Positions 4,857 to 33,889 of a DNA stretch of 64,000 nucleotides are shown in pieces (positions within the stretch are counted from its first letter, which is position 1; the number at the start of each line of letters is the position of its first letter). Position numbers and translations under genes: made by a program. The notes beneath the pieces are model-generated. The model had not been told where the DNA came from. It saw only the letters and a list, made by a program, of their open reading frames with translations, and did not search any database. This stretch comes from Gallionella sp. (lineage in GTDB: Bacteria > Pseudomonadota > Gammaproteobacteria > Burkholderiales > Gallionellaceae): assembly GCA_028688275.1 (NCBI GenBank), contig JAQTYN010000010.1, positions 1 to 64,000 on the forward strand, written 5' to 3'.

Positions 4857-4982
4857 GCACTGATTAAATCTTCCGTTCTTGGTGAGCTTGTCGAACCATG
4901 AACGGAAGATTTAATAAAATCAAAGAACTAAACCCGCTCACCCTTCGACAGGCTCAGGACGAACGGATTTAACAGCGTTTTC
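4857..4982. mobile_element. MITE/REP-like element copy 1
   Basis: gattaaatcttccgttc...gagcttgtcgaaccatgaacgg...cttcgacaggctcaggacgaacggatttaacagcgttt; family recurs throughout the window. Confidence 0.8.
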
Positions 4983-23057: not shown

Positions 23058-23184
23058 GAAATAAATCATCCGTTCGCCCTGAGCTTGTCGAAGGGCTCGT
23101 AAAACACAGAGATTTATCATTATTGAATCCGATCATGGTTCGACAAGCTCACCACGAGCGGATTAAATCTGCGTTTCCTTAGCT
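23058..23184. mobile_element. MITE/REP-like element copy 4
   Basis: aaatcatccgttcgccctgagcttgtcgaaggg...ttcgacaagctcaccacgagcggattaaatctgcgtttcctta. Confidence 0.75.
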
Positions 23185-26269: not shown

Positions 26270-27508
26270 TTACATCTTCGCCACAACCGCTTCGCCAAAG
26301 GCCGAGCAAGATATTTGTTCCGCACCTTCCATCAATCGTGCAAAGTCATAGGTCACGGTTTTAGCACCAATCGCGCCTTCAATGCCTTTCACCACCAAGT
26401 CGGCCGCGTCTCCCCAACCCATGTGACGCAACATCATTTCGGCAGACAAAATCAATGAACCTGGATTCACGTAATCTTTGCCTGCATATTTCGGTGCCGT
26501 GCCGTGGGTGGCTTCAAACATCGCCACGGTATCGGACAAATTCGCGCCTGGGGCAATACCAATACCGCCCACTTCTGCTGCCAATGCGTCGGAAATATAG
26601 TCACCATTCAAATTCAGGGTCGCAATCACGTCGTATTCGGCTGGGCGCAACAAAATTTGTTGCAAGAATGCGTCCGCGATCACGTCTTTGATGATGATGC
26701 CATTGGGCAATTTCAACCATGGACCACCGTCAATTTCCACGCCGCCGAATTCACGTTTAGCGATGTCGTAACCCCAATTTTTGAAGCCACCTTCGGTGAA
26801 CTTCATGATGTTGCCTTTGTGTACCAACGTTACGGACGCACGGTTGTGGTCAATCGCATACTGAATCGCACGGCGTACCAAGCGTTCTGTCCCTTCGGTC
26901 GAAACAGGTTTAATACCAATCGCAGATGTTTCTGGGAAACGAATTTTGGTCACACCCATTTCATTTTGCAAAAATGCGATCACTTTTTTAGCTTCGGGTG
27001 AACCCGCCGCCCATTCGATGCCCGCGTAAATATCTTCGGTATTCTCACGGAAAATCACCATATCGACTTTGTGCGGTTCTTTGACAGGGGTCGGTACACC
27101 CGTAAACCAGCGCACAGGGCGCAGGCAAACGTACAAATCCAACATTTGACGTAGTGCGACGTTCAATGAGCGAATCCCGCCAGAAATCGGCGTGGTTAAT
27201 GGCCCTTTGATCGACACCACATATTCGCGCACGGCTTGCACGGTTTCTTCGGGCAACCACGTATCGTTGCCATATACCTTCACGGCTTTTTCACCCGCAT
27301 AGACTTCCATCCACTCGATTTTCTTTGCGCCGCCGTAAGCTTTAGCCACTGCCGCATCCACCACACGGCGCATCGGAGGGGTAATATCCACGCCCGTACC
27401 ATCGCCTTCGATGAAGGGAATAATGGGATGGTCAGGCACATTCAAGGTGTGATCTGCATTAACGGTAATTTTGCTGCCTTGAGCGGGGACTGTGATGTGC
27501 TGGTACAT
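26270..27508 (-). CDS. icd: NADP-dependent isocitrate dehydrogenase
   Basis: [67 protein letters not shown]. Confidence 0.97.
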
Positions 27509-27578
27509 AGTTCAACTTCTCCGAAGAAATAGAAAGGATTACGGTAATATCGCCGCTGAAAAATCACTGAGGACTGTA

Positions 27579-28115
27579 ATGAAACGCGTCTTGCTATTTA
27601 ACAAACCATTTGGGGTGATCTGCCAATTTAGTCGCGACGGGCTACATCCAACGCTGGCGGATTATATCGCGCTTCCTGACTTTTATGCCGCTGGCAGACT
27701 AGATACTGACAGCGAAGGTTTATTGGTATTGACCGATGATGGCAAATTACAACATCAATTGACCGATCCCAAGTTTAAACAAGAAAAAACCTATTGGGTG
27801 CAAGTCGAAGGCATACCCGACGAAACCGCGCTGCAAGCCTTACGCAACGGGGTAAAACTGTCCGACTTCACCACCCTGCCCGCGCAAGCACGCTTAATCG
27901 ACGAACCTGCTGGATTATGGGCACGCAATCCGCCGATACGTCAACGGCTGCACATCCCCACCAGTTGGGTCGAAATCACCCTGCGCGAAGGCAAAAACCG
28001 CCAAATCCGCCGCATGACCGCCGCCGTGGGCTACCCCACTTTACGCTTGATACGTTATCAAATTGGCGATTGGACGTTGGACAATCTTGCGGTGGGGGAA
28101 TGGCGATACGGCTAA
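27579..28115 (+). CDS. rluE: 23S rRNA pseudouridine synthase, RluE-type (RsuA family)
   Basis: [64 protein letters not shown]. Confidence 0.92.
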
Positions 28116-28252
28116 GGAGGAGCTGATTAAATCCGTTCGCCCTGAGCTTGTCGAAGGGCGAACGAATTTAATGTATTGATTTCATTAGATCTTCCATTCA
28201 TGGTTCGACAAGCTCACCACGAACGGAAGATTTAATCAGCGTTTCCCTAAGA
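28116..28252. mobile_element. MITE/REP-like element copy 5
   Basis: gagctgattaaatccgttcgccctgagcttgtcgaagg...ttcgacaagctcaccacgaacggaagatttaatcagcgtttccctaag. Confidence 0.85.
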
Positions 28253-28360
28253 CGGAAAATCATACATACAATTGACATCTTTTATTGATAATGAAATTCT
28301 GTAAAATACCCTCCGTATTTTAAAGTATTCCCCATACAGTTAATCTCAATCAGTTAAATC

Positions 28361-28915
28361 ATGGCTCAATTTATTGCTTTTGACAAAAATGCAGAAGTCG
28401 CAGGACACAGTATTCTGTCGACGCTAAGTACATTTCCTGAATATTATCGTGCAGAAATTGAACAATTTTTTAAGGATAATAATGTCACAAATGTGACGCC
28501 CGATAGCTGGCATAGCCAGCAGAGCTATTTGAATGTTTGCAAAGATATTTCAACTCGTTATGGCCCAAGTACGCTCTTTAATGCGGGTGTAGCGGTAGGT
28601 GAGAGCGTCCCTTTTCCGCCTGGAACCACATTGCAAGCAGCATTCGCAGGTTGGAATGACGCATATCTCTCGCATCACCGCAATGGTTATCTGATGGGCT
28701 ACATCAAGCTGCTCTCCTTTGACCCTCAAGCTAAAAAAGCCGTGGTCGAATGCAAAAACCCCTATCCTTCTCATTTTGAACGCGGCATCGCGACCACCTT
28801 TGCCCGTAAATGTAAGCCAAAAGATGCGGCGTTTATTGATGTTCAACTTGATAATACGATGAAATCACGCCTAGACGGTGCAGATTCATGCTTTTATGTC
28901 ATCACTTGGATTTAA
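28361..28915 (+). CDS. Tandem ~184-aa paralog family, copy 1
   Basis: MAQFIAFDKNAEVAGHSIL...NPYPSHFERGIATTFARK...SRLDGADSCFYVITW. Confidence 0.88.
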   Translation: MAQFIAFDKNAEVAGHSILSTLSTFPEYYRAEIEQFFKDNNVTNVTPDSWHSQQSYLNVCKDISTRYGPSTLFNAGVAVGESVPFPPGTTLQAAFAGWNDAYLSHHRNGYLMGYIKLLSFDPQAKKAVVECKNPYPSHFERGIATTFARKCKPKDAAFIDVQLDNTMKSRLDGADSCFYVITWI

Positions 28916-28985
28916 GGTCACCCGCTACGATATCCATATAACAGCTATTTAATCAACACGTTGCGAAACGTATACTTTTAAGATC

Positions 28986-29540
28986 ATGGCTCAGTTTATT
29001 GCTTTTGACAAAAATACAGAAGTCGCAGGACACTCTCTCCAGACCGCTTTAACTTTTTTTCCTGAATATTATCGTGCGGATATTGAACGACTCCTCAACG
29101 AAAACAATATCGTGAATATCACACCCGATAGCTGGCATCACCAGCAGGGCTGGTTGAGTACACTCAAAGAGGTTTCGGTTCGCTATGGTTCAAATACGCT
29201 TTTCAATGTAGGTTTCTCGATAGGAAATGATGTTCCATTTCCGCCTGAATTCACCTTGGAAGCAGCCTATTCTGCTTGGGAGGGGGCATATCGCTCGCAT
29301 CACCGCAATGGTTATCTGATGGGCTACATCAAGTTACTCTCCTTTGACGACAAAGCAAAAAAAGCAGTGGTCGAATGCAGAAATCCCTACCCCTGTCATT
29401 TTGAACGCGGTATCGCAACGGCATTTGCCCGTAAGTTTAAACCCCAAGACGCGGGCTTCATTGATGTCCAGCTTGATAAGGATAAGAAGTCGCGCCTAAA
29501 CGGTGCAGATTCAAGTTTTTATGTTATCACTTGGTTTTAA
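28986..29540 (+). CDS. Tandem ~184-aa paralog family, copy 2
   Basis: MAQFIAFDKNTEVAGHSLQ...NPYPCHFERGIATAFARKF...GADSSFYVITWF. Confidence 0.88.
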   Translation: MAQFIAFDKNTEVAGHSLQTALTFFPEYYRADIERLLNENNIVNITPDSWHHQQGWLSTLKEVSVRYGSNTLFNVGFSIGNDVPFPPEFTLEAAYSAWEGAYRSHHRNGYLMGYIKLLSFDDKAKKAVVECRNPYPCHFERGIATAFARKFKPQDAGFIDVQLDKDKKSRLNGADSSFYVITWF

Positions 29541-29547
29541 CGTTGGC

Positions 29548-29577
29548 CTCTACTCAGTTCAAGTAGGGGCTTTTTAT
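29548..29577 (+). terminator. Intercistronic stem-loop/T-run in paralog array
   Basis: cctctactcagttcaagtaggggctttttat. Confidence 0.65.
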
Positions 29578-29608
29578 CAACATTATTGCAGATCACGACA
29601 CCTAAATC

Positions 29609-30163
29609 ATGGCACAATTTATCGCTTTTGAAAAAGATGTGGAAGTACTCGGCATAGGCATACTGACGATCATTCCCGCTTTTCCTGAGTATGCTCGTCC
29701 CCTCGTTGAAGGGTTGATGGCAGAAAATAATCTCCTGAACGTCACGCCCGAAAAGTGGTTCAAGGTACAGCCCCTACTAAATGTTTTCAAAGCATTTTCA
29801 ACCAGTTATGGCCCTAGCACCCTTTTTCACGTCGGCGTAACCGTGTTTGAAGGCTTTGATCTTCCGCCGCAACTAACCGATTTAGAATCTGCTTTAAAGT
29901 TGATCGGTGAAGTATATCTTATGCGCCATCGCAATGGAGAGCTTGGATATGTGGAACTCAGATCTTTTGATGTCCAAGCAAAAAGAGCTGTCATAGAGTA
30001 TTGCAATCCTTACCCTTGTCATTTTGAACGCGGCATCGTGACCGCTTGTGCGCGTAAATTTAAACCCCAAGGTGCGCATTTCATTGAAGTTGAGCTTGAG
30101 AAAAATAAGCCCTCACGACTAGACGGAGCGGATTCCAGTTTTTATGTCATTACTTGGTTTTAA
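29609..30163 (+). CDS. Tandem ~184-aa paralog family, copy 3
   Basis: MAQFIAFEKDVEVLGIGIL...NPYPCHFERGIVTACARKF...GADSSFYVITWF. Confidence 0.88.
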   Translation: MAQFIAFEKDVEVLGIGILTIIPAFPEYARPLVEGLMAENNLLNVTPEKWFKVQPLLNVFKAFSTSYGPSTLFHVGVTVFEGFDLPPQLTDLESALKLIGEVYLMRHRNGELGYVELRSFDVQAKRAVIEYCNPYPCHFERGIVTACARKFKPQGAHFIEVELEKNKPSRLDGADSSFYVITWF

Positions 30164-30232
30164 CGTCGGTCTCTACCCAGTCAGTGTAGCGGCTATTTAA
30201 TCAACATTTTTCAGATCTATAATACTAAAATC

Positions 30233-30793
30233 ATGGCTCAATTTATCGCTTTTGACAGAAATATGGAAATACTGGGTCTCCCTATCCTAGCGACTTTAGA
30301 GAGTTTTCCTCCGTATTATCGTGCCGATATTGAACGATTATTGAAAGAGAATAATCTCGTCAATTTGCTACCCAATAATTGGTACAAGCTACAGAACTAT
30401 TTAAATGTACTTAAAGCAATTTCAACGCAGTATGGTGAAAATACGCTGTTTAATGTCGGCGTGGAGGTCTTTGGCAAGCTACCATTCCCACCTAATATGA
30501 CATTGAAATCATCATTGGCCTCCTTAGATGCAGCCTATAAAGCACATCACCGCAATTGTCCTACTGGATATAATAGCCCTAGTATTAAGCTCGTCTACGA
30601 TGAGCAAGCTCAAAAAGCCGTGGTGGAGAGTAAAACCCCAACACCTTGCCACTTTGAGCGCGGTCTCATTACCGCAGCTACCCGTCGATTTACTCCCCCA
30701 GGAGCTAAGTTTATTGACGTTCAGTTGGATAAAACCAAAAAATCTCGCTTAGATGGTGCAGATACCAGTTTTTATATCATCACTTGGTTTTAA
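30233..30793 (+). CDS. Tandem ~184-aa paralog family, copy 4
   Basis: MAQFIAFDRNMEILGLPIL...PTPCHFERGLITAATRRF...GADTSFYIITWF. Confidence 0.88.
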   Translation: MAQFIAFDRNMEILGLPILATLESFPPYYRADIERLLKENNLVNLLPNNWYKLQNYLNVLKAISTQYGENTLFNVGVEVFGKLPFPPNMTLKSSLASLDAAYKAHHRNCPTGYNSPSIKLVYDEQAQKAVVESKTPTPCHFERGLITAATRRFTPPGAKFIDVQLDKTKKSRLDGADTSFYIITWF

Positions 30794-30799
30794 CGTTAG

Positions 30800-30831
30800 C
30801 CTCTACTCAGTTCAAGTAGAGGCTTTTTATC
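30800..30831 (+). terminator. Intercistronic rho-independent terminator in paralog array
   Basis: gcctctactcagttcaagtagaggcttttta. Confidence 0.75.
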
Positions 30832-30861
30832 AATATTATTGCGGATCACAACACTTAAACC

Positions 30862-31413
30862 ATGGCACAATTTATCGCTTTTGACAAAAATGTGGAGATA
30901 CTTGGACTCCCTATATTGACATGTTTAGAGAGTTTTCCTGGGTATTATCGTAAGGATATTGAACACTTGCTGCAAGAAAACAATCTCGTCAATCTAGCGC
31001 CCAATAAGTGGTACAAGCTGCAGAACTATCTGAATGTGCTTAAGGCAATTTCAACGCAATATGGTGCAAATACGCTGTTTAATGTGGGAGTAGCGGTCTT
31101 TGGCAAACTACCTTTCCCCCCAGACACCACTTTGAAAACAGCATTGGCGGCCATGGAAGCCGCCTATAACTCACATCATCGCAACGGCCCTACTGGCTAC
31201 ATTAAAATCCTCTCTTTTGATGAACAAGCTCAAAAAGCGGTGATGGAGTTTAAAACCCCTTCACCATGCCACTTTGAACGCGGCATCATTACGGCGGCGG
31301 CTCGTCGTTTTATCCCCCCAAACGCCAAATTTATTGATGTTCAACTTGAAAAAAACAAACCCTCACGATTGGACGGGGCGGATACAAGTGTTTATGAAAT
31401 CATTTGGTTTTAA
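30862..31413 (+). CDS. Tandem ~184-aa paralog family, copy 5
   Basis: MAQFIAFDKNVEILGLPIL...PSPCHFERGIITAAARRF...GADTSVYEIIWF. Confidence 0.88.
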   Translation: MAQFIAFDKNVEILGLPILTCLESFPGYYRKDIEHLLQENNLVNLAPNKWYKLQNYLNVLKAISTQYGANTLFNVGVAVFGKLPFPPDTTLKTALAAMEAAYNSHHRNGPTGYIKILSFDEQAQKAVMEFKTPSPCHFERGIITAAARRFIPPNAKFIDVQLEKNKPSRLDGADTSVYEIIWF

Positions 31414-31516: not shown

Positions 31517-33889
31517 TCAACCACTTGCTTTTTCAGACAATTTACGCCACGTTTCCAACAGGGTATCGGGATTTAGCGATATGGTTTGGATACCTGCCTC
31601 CACCAGCCATAACGCAAAATCAAAGTGATCCGACGGGCCTTGACCACAAATACCGACGTATTTATCCAGTCGATTGCAGGTCGTAATCGCCATGGTCAGC
31701 AAAGCTTTGACGGCATCATCGCGTTCGTCGAAGCGGTTTGCGACCAAGCTGGAATCTCTATCCACCCCCAGTGTTAATTGAGTTAAGTCATTGGAACCAA
31801 TGGAAAAACCATCGAAGTATTGCAAAAACTGTTCTGCAGATAGCGCGTTAGAGGGAATTTCGCACATCATAATCAAGCGCAAACCGTGTTCACCGCGTGT
31901 CAGTCCATTTTTTGCAAGCTCTTTCACCACTTCTCGTGCTTCGGTGACCGTGCGCACAAACGGGATCATCACTTCTACATTGGTGTAACCCAGCGTTTCG
32001 CGTACCCGTTTCATGGCTTGGCATTCCAGCGCGAAGCAATCGGTAAAGCTGGGCGCAACATATCGTCCTGCGCCACGGAAACCGATCATGGGGTTTTCTT
32101 CCGCGGGTTCATACCCCTCACCGCCCATCAATAAGCGATATTCGTTAGATTTAAAGTCGGATAGCCGCACGATCACGGGTTTTGGCCAGAATGCGGCTGC
32201 CAAGGTTGCTATCCCCTCCGTGAGTTTATCCACGTAGAACGACACAGGATCGGCATAGCCACGGGATTGGTGTAACAGTTGCGCTTGTAAATCGGCTGAC
32301 AAGGTGTCAAATTGCAATGCCGCTTTAGGGTGTATGCCGATCAGGTTGTTGATGATAAATTCCAGCCTCGCCAAACCCACTCCTGCCGAGGGTAGGCTAG
32401 CAAATTCAAAGGCTAAAGTGGGATTCCCGACGTTGAGCATCAACTTCACGGGAATGTCTCCCAATGCCGCCTCATTTTGCCGTGTCACCTCAAAGCGTAA
32501 CTGACCGCGATAGACTTTACCTGTATCGCCTTCAGCGCAAGAAACCGTCACCACTTCACCATCTTTTAAAACCTCGGTAGCATTGCCGCAACCGACAATG
32601 GCTGGGATGCCCATTTCACGCGCAATAATGGCTGCATGACAGGTGCGACCACCACGATTGGTCACAATCGCCGAGGCGATTTTCATCACGGGTTCCCAGT
32701 TCGGGTCGGTCATGTCGGTGACCAGAACATCGCCCGCTTTAACTTTGTACATTTCCGCGCTACTGACCACTAAACGCACGCAACCTGTGCCTATCTTTTG
32801 CCCGATGGCGCGTCCTTCAATCAGCACTTCACCAGTTTGTTGCAACTGAAATTGCTCACTCACGCTACCCATCGCAGACTGAGATTGCACGGTTTCAGGT
32901 CGCGCCTGCAAGATGTAGAGCTTGCCGTCTATGCCATCTTTACCCCATTCAATGTCCATCGGACGACCATAATGCGCTTCAATCGCCAAGGCATGACGCG
33001 CCAATTCCAGCACTTCCGCATCGGTCAGCGAAAAGCGATCTCGCAGTGCAAGAGGCACGTCTTCAATGCGCGTGGAATGCCCAGTCGCCTGACTATCGGT
33101 AAATACCATGCGCTCCAATTTTGAACCGATGCTACGGCGCACGATGGCGGGGAATCCTTGTGCCAAATGCGGTTTGTGGACATAAAATTCATCAGGATTC
33201 ACCGAACCTTGCACCACCATCTCGCCCAAGCCGTAAGCGGAAGTGATAAACACCGCATCGCGGAATCCTGATTCTGTATCCAAGGTAAACATCACCCCCG
33301 ATGCGCCCAAATCTGACCGCACCATGCGTTGCACGCCAGCCGATAGGGCAACATTCATGCCCGTATAACCTGTATGCACGCGATAGGAAATCGCTCTATC
33401 GTTATACAAAGAGGCGAAAACTTCGCGTATCGCCTGCAAAATGTGGTCAATTCCGCGTATATTCAAGAAAGTTTCCTGTTGCCCTGCGAATGACGCATCA
33501 GGCAAATCTTCCGCCGTGGCAGAAGAACGTACCGCAAAACTGGCCTGACCATCTTCACTCAACACAGCATAATGCTCTCGAATTTCGGCCTCTAAACGCG
33601 CAGGTAAAGGTGCGGTGACGATCCAACTACGAATTTCTGCGCCTGCCGTAGCCAACGCCACCACATCACTTACATCCAACGTTGCCAATGTCGCCTCAAT
33701 GCGGACATCTAGTCCATTATCGTGTAAGAAATCACGATAAGCCTGCGCCGTGGTGGCAAAGCCCCCAGGCACAATCACCCCAGATGCGCCAAGATGACAG
33801 ATCATCTCACCCAAAGAGGCATTTTTACCGCCAACTGAAGCAATATCGGCAATTCCCAGTGATTCAAAAGGCATGACATAGCGTTGCAT
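31517..33889 (-). CDS. ppsA: Phosphoenolpyruvate synthase
   Basis: [56 protein letters not shown]. Confidence 0.97.

Follow-up and report, generated by a model that had tools for sequence, protein, structure and literature searches.

Tandem paralogs with a predicted H-NOX fold and no canonical heme-anchoring motif in Gallionella sp.

A stretch of 64,000 bp from Gallionella sp. (the window; assembly GCA_028688275.1, contig JAQTYN010000010.1, positions 1 to 64,000) carries an array of five paralogous genes that we read, with a probability of roughly 0.55, as a lineage-specific tandem expansion of single-domain sensors of the H-NOX superfamily. On this reading the proteins are probably not canonical heme/NO sensors, and the array members probably sense something else. 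The genes with their paralogy, synteny and selection are shown, as are the predicted fold, the profile homology to H-NOX, the replacement of the heme motif and a GGDEF fusion in a relative; what the proteins bind, what they act on and their role in signaling are inferred.

The array and its relatives

The array occupies positions 28361-31413 of the plus strand as five consecutive complete ORFs separated by gaps of 68–70 bp: W1 (28361..28915, 184 aa), W2 (28986..29540, 184 aa), W3 (29609..30163, 184 aa), W4 (30233..30793, 186 aa) and W5 (30862..31413, 183 aa). An initial annotation had described five tandem paralogs of 183–186 aa, which the ORFs, their alignment and pairwise protein identities of 54–79% bear out, and the motifs it quoted are essentially correct when checked against the ORF translations and alignment. 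All five proteins begin with MAQFIAF[DE][KR], and the motifs YGxxTLF, HRN, PCHFERG (with S in gene 1) and SRLxGAD[ST] are common to the array. With more than 60 invariant columns in the alignment, identities of this order amount to a likeness beyond chance. The paralogs differ least in the C-terminal core; the regions where they differ most include the PFPP loop, helix F and helices A-B. The G+C content of the array is ~44%, against ~51–52% on either side, and the flanking genes, named from their translations, are a pseudouridine-synthase-like gene (27492-28115) and, on the opposite strand, a PEP-synthase-like gene (31517-33889).

A plus-strand block at 28258..28360 aligns with the corresponding region of Gallionella sp. 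STB_49 and is probably the promoter and leader of the array; a search for consensus promoters in the array gave none above chance. A terminator-like hairpin with a T run lies 3' of gene 2 (29545..29571, plus strand), a near-identical hairpin lies 3' of gene 4 (30798..30824, plus strand), and degenerate stems resembling them occur in several other gaps, including those of STB_49. Terminator-like hairpin sites in the array region are no more numerous than expected by chance, and an Rfam search of the array and its gaps gave no match. Separately, the REP-like repeat GAGCTTGTCGAAGGG was matched 11 times in the window, where 0.18 matches would be expected, in places as inverted pairs; sites include 28144-28215, 23081-23150, 4884-4955, 34039 and 35195, and one of the pairs is found a short distance upstream of the array.

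The window is part of contig C107 in a 3.16 Mb genome with eight family members, of which three lie outside the array on contigs C6, C76 and C89, the C89 copy being divergent. The nearest named record, STB_49, has a syntenic array of eight tandem members and one further copy elsewhere. The tree pairs W1 with S1, W2 with S4, W3 with S2 and C6 with S9 and shows most duplications to be older than the split between the window species and STB_49. The genes are maintained, given that ortholog dN/dS values of ~0.06–0.3 indicate purifying selection (~0.2–0.3 for W1, ~0.06–0.08 for W2 and ~0.07–0.09 for W3, which is 98% identical to S2). In the tree, the gene that ends the STB_49 array (S8) is nearest to the Bacteroidota outgroups. 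Two further features were seen near these copies: type I restriction-modification-like genes (M and S subunits, from translations) downstream of the STB_49 array (L021:13473-16386), and a short tandem repeat stretch, recognized from an ORF translation, between a trpD-like gene and the C6 member (L003:752-1186).

Outside these two arrays the family is rare. Only three of 159 genomes from the family to which Gallionella belongs gave a match, and among 399 Pseudomonadota genomes the sole match was the window's own genome. Homologs were found in Bacteroidota, as a pair on a Leptolinea plasmid, in Chondrinema, on plasmids of Haloarcula and Halobellus, and on one IMG/VR contig. Occurrence counts are lower bounds, with at least 9 of 72,556 plasmid records and at least 4 of 300 Bacteroidota genomes (seed genome counted) carrying a member. 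A pattern scan of genome contigs likewise gave at least seven family loci, a lower bound because the patterns were narrow and drawn from array members. The best reading is of a sparsely distributed family, absent from the searched profile libraries and amplified in Gallionella.

Several of the distant loci have features of their own. On the 112 kb IMG/VR contig (L061:1319-6909) the family member sits amid nicotinamidase-like, nicotinate phosphoribosyltransferase and MazG-cytidylyltransferase fusion genes, an NAD-salvage set to which it may or may not be linked. In both haloarchaeal genera (Haloarcula L030:5001-6064 and Halobellus L031:5001-6070) the member is convergent with a MarR-family regulator gene, and the Halobellus copy was matched as two pieces, which may reflect a frameshift. 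The gene neighborhood in a MAG labelled Thalassovita (L024) is apparently the same as that on a Chondrinema litorale plasmid (L028); hence, the Thalassovita-labelled contig is probably mis-binned or mislabelled.

Predicted fold and remote homology

Standard sequence searches did not name the family. No Pfam, NCBIfam or PHROGs model matched the family proteins above cut-off, Pfam HNOB matched none of W1–W5 and seven other members even at an E cut-off of 1, and neither HNOB nor V4R was found in the genome G000 (V4R also gave no match among the family proteins tested). A sequence search of the PDB returned RNase 1 at E 1.4 only, which is chance. The myxobacterial DUF2378/TIGR02265 model matched the Haloarcula member alone, over a short stretch and below cut-off (E 0.075–0.085), and a search of the open-access literature gave nothing relevant on either DUF2378 or H-NOX in Gallionella.

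The initial annotation had likened the C-terminal pattern to V4R or heme-NO-binding sensor domains, and the structure prediction it proposed did find a related fold, that of H-NOX. AlphaFold2 models of W2 (pLDDT 94.1, pTM 0.90) and of a phage homolog (pLDDT 92.4, pTM 0.89) were compared with the PDB using Foldseek; their input alignments overlap heavily, so the two models are only partly independent. For W2, ranks 1–37 were all H-NOX or sGC (best E 8e-6), and for the phage homolog ranks 1–18 were (best E 5e-6), with a probability of 1.00 and TM ~0.6–0.67 for the H-NOX matches. For both models the next matches were TRAPP3/Bet3 and CesD/BcsD, and a search of the BFVD viral structures gave no significant match. 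The likeness to H-NOX (PF07700; S. oneidensis, PDB 4U99 and 4U9B) extends over the full-length predicted fold, the order of secondary structures and the size of ~184 aa, and includes the GI helix G and the C-terminal strand. Unlike H-NOX, the family has no Pfam HNOB match and its identity in the structural alignment is ~9–14%.

Profile comparison with hhalign (a profile of 35 family members aligned to one of 16 H-NOX proteins, with 60 column shuffles and a reversed profile as controls) gave E 1.9e-5 and a score of 28.9 in global mode, compared with a shuffle maximum of 8.0 and 6.0 for the reversed profile, and E 2e-4 and a score of 33.3 in local mode, compared with a shuffle maximum of 17.5. 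Together, the Foldseek ranking and hhalign scores above the shuffles make both the predicted H-NOX fold and remote homology of the family to H-NOX well supported. The heme-NO-binding half of the earlier suggestion is thus upheld by two models and a significant profile alignment despite the silence of Pfam, and for its V4R half the profile match is weaker, above its own shuffles but behind H-NOX.

Heme and zinc sites, and other readings

The proximal His of H-NOX sits on helix F, and the heme propionates are held by a YxSxR motif (PMC8196705); the proximal His is conserved in all ~600 H-NOX sequences surveyed (PMC7108781). The motif Hx(27,29)YxSxR, taken from PMC6696476, occurs in none of 35 family members and in 16 of 18 H-NOX controls. 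The YxSxR columns fall on C131, N133 and Y135 of the family (59, 59 and 60 of 60 resamplings), which belong to the family motif E-C-x-N-P-Y-P-C; in W3 the Cys has moved to position 132 (EYCNPYPC). With the YxSxR anchor replaced by C-x-N-P-Y-P-C, canonical heme binding is unlikely and the family members are probably not canonical heme/NO sensors. A comparable case is the H-NOX domain of the sGC alpha subunit, which has the fold without the heme-site residues and binds no heme (PMC8196705), although it is part of a eukaryotic cyclase and the array family consists mostly of stand-alone proteins.

A second site of interest is the zinc site of S. oneidensis H-NOX, formed by Cys139, Cys164 and Cys172, at which the heme-free V. 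cholerae protein responds to oxidation (PMC7108781). In all 60 resamplings these cysteines aligned with family positions 137, 169 and 177; the complete triad with its exact C-x7-C spacing is found in only six deep members, namely C89, both Leptolinea copies (L029a and L029b), Haloarcula L030, L054 and L055. Among the window proteins, four of five have C137, all five have Ser169, and position 177 is Cys in W1 and otherwise Ser. A simple reading of these residues is that the array may have lost an ancestral zinc site, and the triad-bearing relatives, including C89, may sense redox state or metal. V. cholerae H-NOX resembles the deep members in its Cys triad and provides a precedent for heme-free Cys-Zn signaling (PMC7108781). 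However, it retains a proximal His and is capable of heme binding, whereas in the array two of the three zinc-Cys positions are Ser (one in W1).

Three other readings of the array were weighed. If His106 were the proximal ligand of a non-canonically bound heme, with NPYPC standing in for YxSxR, the proteins could be NO, O2 or CO sensors of a microaerophilic iron oxidizer. The closest fold is indeed that of a heme sensor, and His106, present in 34 of 35 members directly after the helix that bears the heme ligand in H-NOX, could serve as one. Yet YxSxR is missing at the aligned place in every member, helix F (91–104) has no conserved His, the column aligned to the proximal His is ambiguous (R103 in 23, H105 in 22 and E99 in 10 of 60 resamplings), and C89 has Ile at position 106, all of which leaves heme sensing unlikely.

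A V4R-like sensor of small organics or lipids, of the XylR/DmpR or TRAPP/Bet3 type and not a relative of H-NOX, would account for the C-x7-C of the deep members, which is also a V4R feature, for an hhalign score of 23.5 (shuffle maximum 16.5), and for the TRAPP3/Bet3 structures below H-NOX in Foldseek. We consider this decidedly unlikely, given that H-NOX is the stronger match in both profile (E 2e-5 versus 0.011) and fold, that bacterial V4R structures are absent from the Foldseek top 50, and that no Pfam V4R (PF02830) match was obtained. The two fold superfamilies are themselves related (hhalign E 8.5e-5), and the choice between them is therefore a question of branch. Finally, the paralogs might be structural or scaffold proteins that reuse the fold as the cellulose-synthase D subunits CesD and BcsD do (Foldseek E ~1e-3), with co-linear copies forming hetero-oligomers, but the H-NOX fold match is much better, other genomes have single copies, and a GGDEF fusion and signaling neighbors of relatives point to a sensor, making a scaffold role improbable. 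We favor H-NOX-superfamily sensors that are probably not canonical heme/NO sensors.

Signaling context and proposed role

Known bacterial H-NOX proteins are usually accompanied by a kinase or cyclase partner gene. The window array, in contrast, has no adjacent kinase or cyclase gene, and no signaling gene was found next to the array or next to the copies on C6, C76 and C89. Links to signaling come from relatives. In a congener (G039) the family domain is fused to GGDEF (family profile E 2.3e-11, from a profile built without it; Pfam GGDEF 6e-43), a pair of deep members adjoins an MCP gene and a REC-GAF-PAS-GGDEF gene, and elsewhere a deep member neighbors a protein with two receiver domains. 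Taken with the H-NOX analogy, these contexts lead us to infer a stand-alone sensor module acting in trans. The suggestion in the initial annotation of stand-alone sensor-like modules is thus plausible. Among relatives, no gene neighbors were common outside close synteny groups, and hence no operon partner can be named.

Each array protein would probably be a soluble, cytosolic sensor module in which a signal is bound, or undergoes a reaction, in or close to the cleft that separates the helical N-terminal subdomain from the alpha/beta C-terminal one. A resulting change of shape could be passed to partner enzymes such as diguanylate cyclases or kinases through helix F together with the N-terminal helices, in the manner of H-NOX, which contacts its kinase via helices A-C and F (PMC7108781). 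The variability of helices A-B and F, which in H-NOX belong to that kinase-contact surface, is what would be expected if the paralogs differ in partner or signal, and the copies would then have diverged in helices likely to face their partners. The array members would have lost two of the zinc cysteines and probably sense something other than the redox state or metal that their deep relatives may sense.

More tentatively, and at somewhat less than even odds, the family as a whole could be an unnamed cross-domain branch of the H-NOX superfamily (bacteria, haloarchaea, phage) without a canonical heme site, in which ancestral members relied on a Cys-Zn redox or metal switch and a Cys-depleted form was amplified in Gallionella to an array of up to eight parallel sensors with differing signals or partners.

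H-NOX is the founding model of NO sensing, across a range from bacterial proteins to the guanylate cyclase of humans. A predicted H-NOX fold without the heme-anchoring motif suggests a little-known branch of this sensor superfamily with another signal or another mode of detection, and a family of this kind, nameless in the searched profile libraries, joined to a diguanylate cyclase in one species and expanded in iron oxidizers, would show the fold adapting to other signals. Arrays of five to eight paralogs would be a natural variant set for dissecting the choice of ligand and partner.
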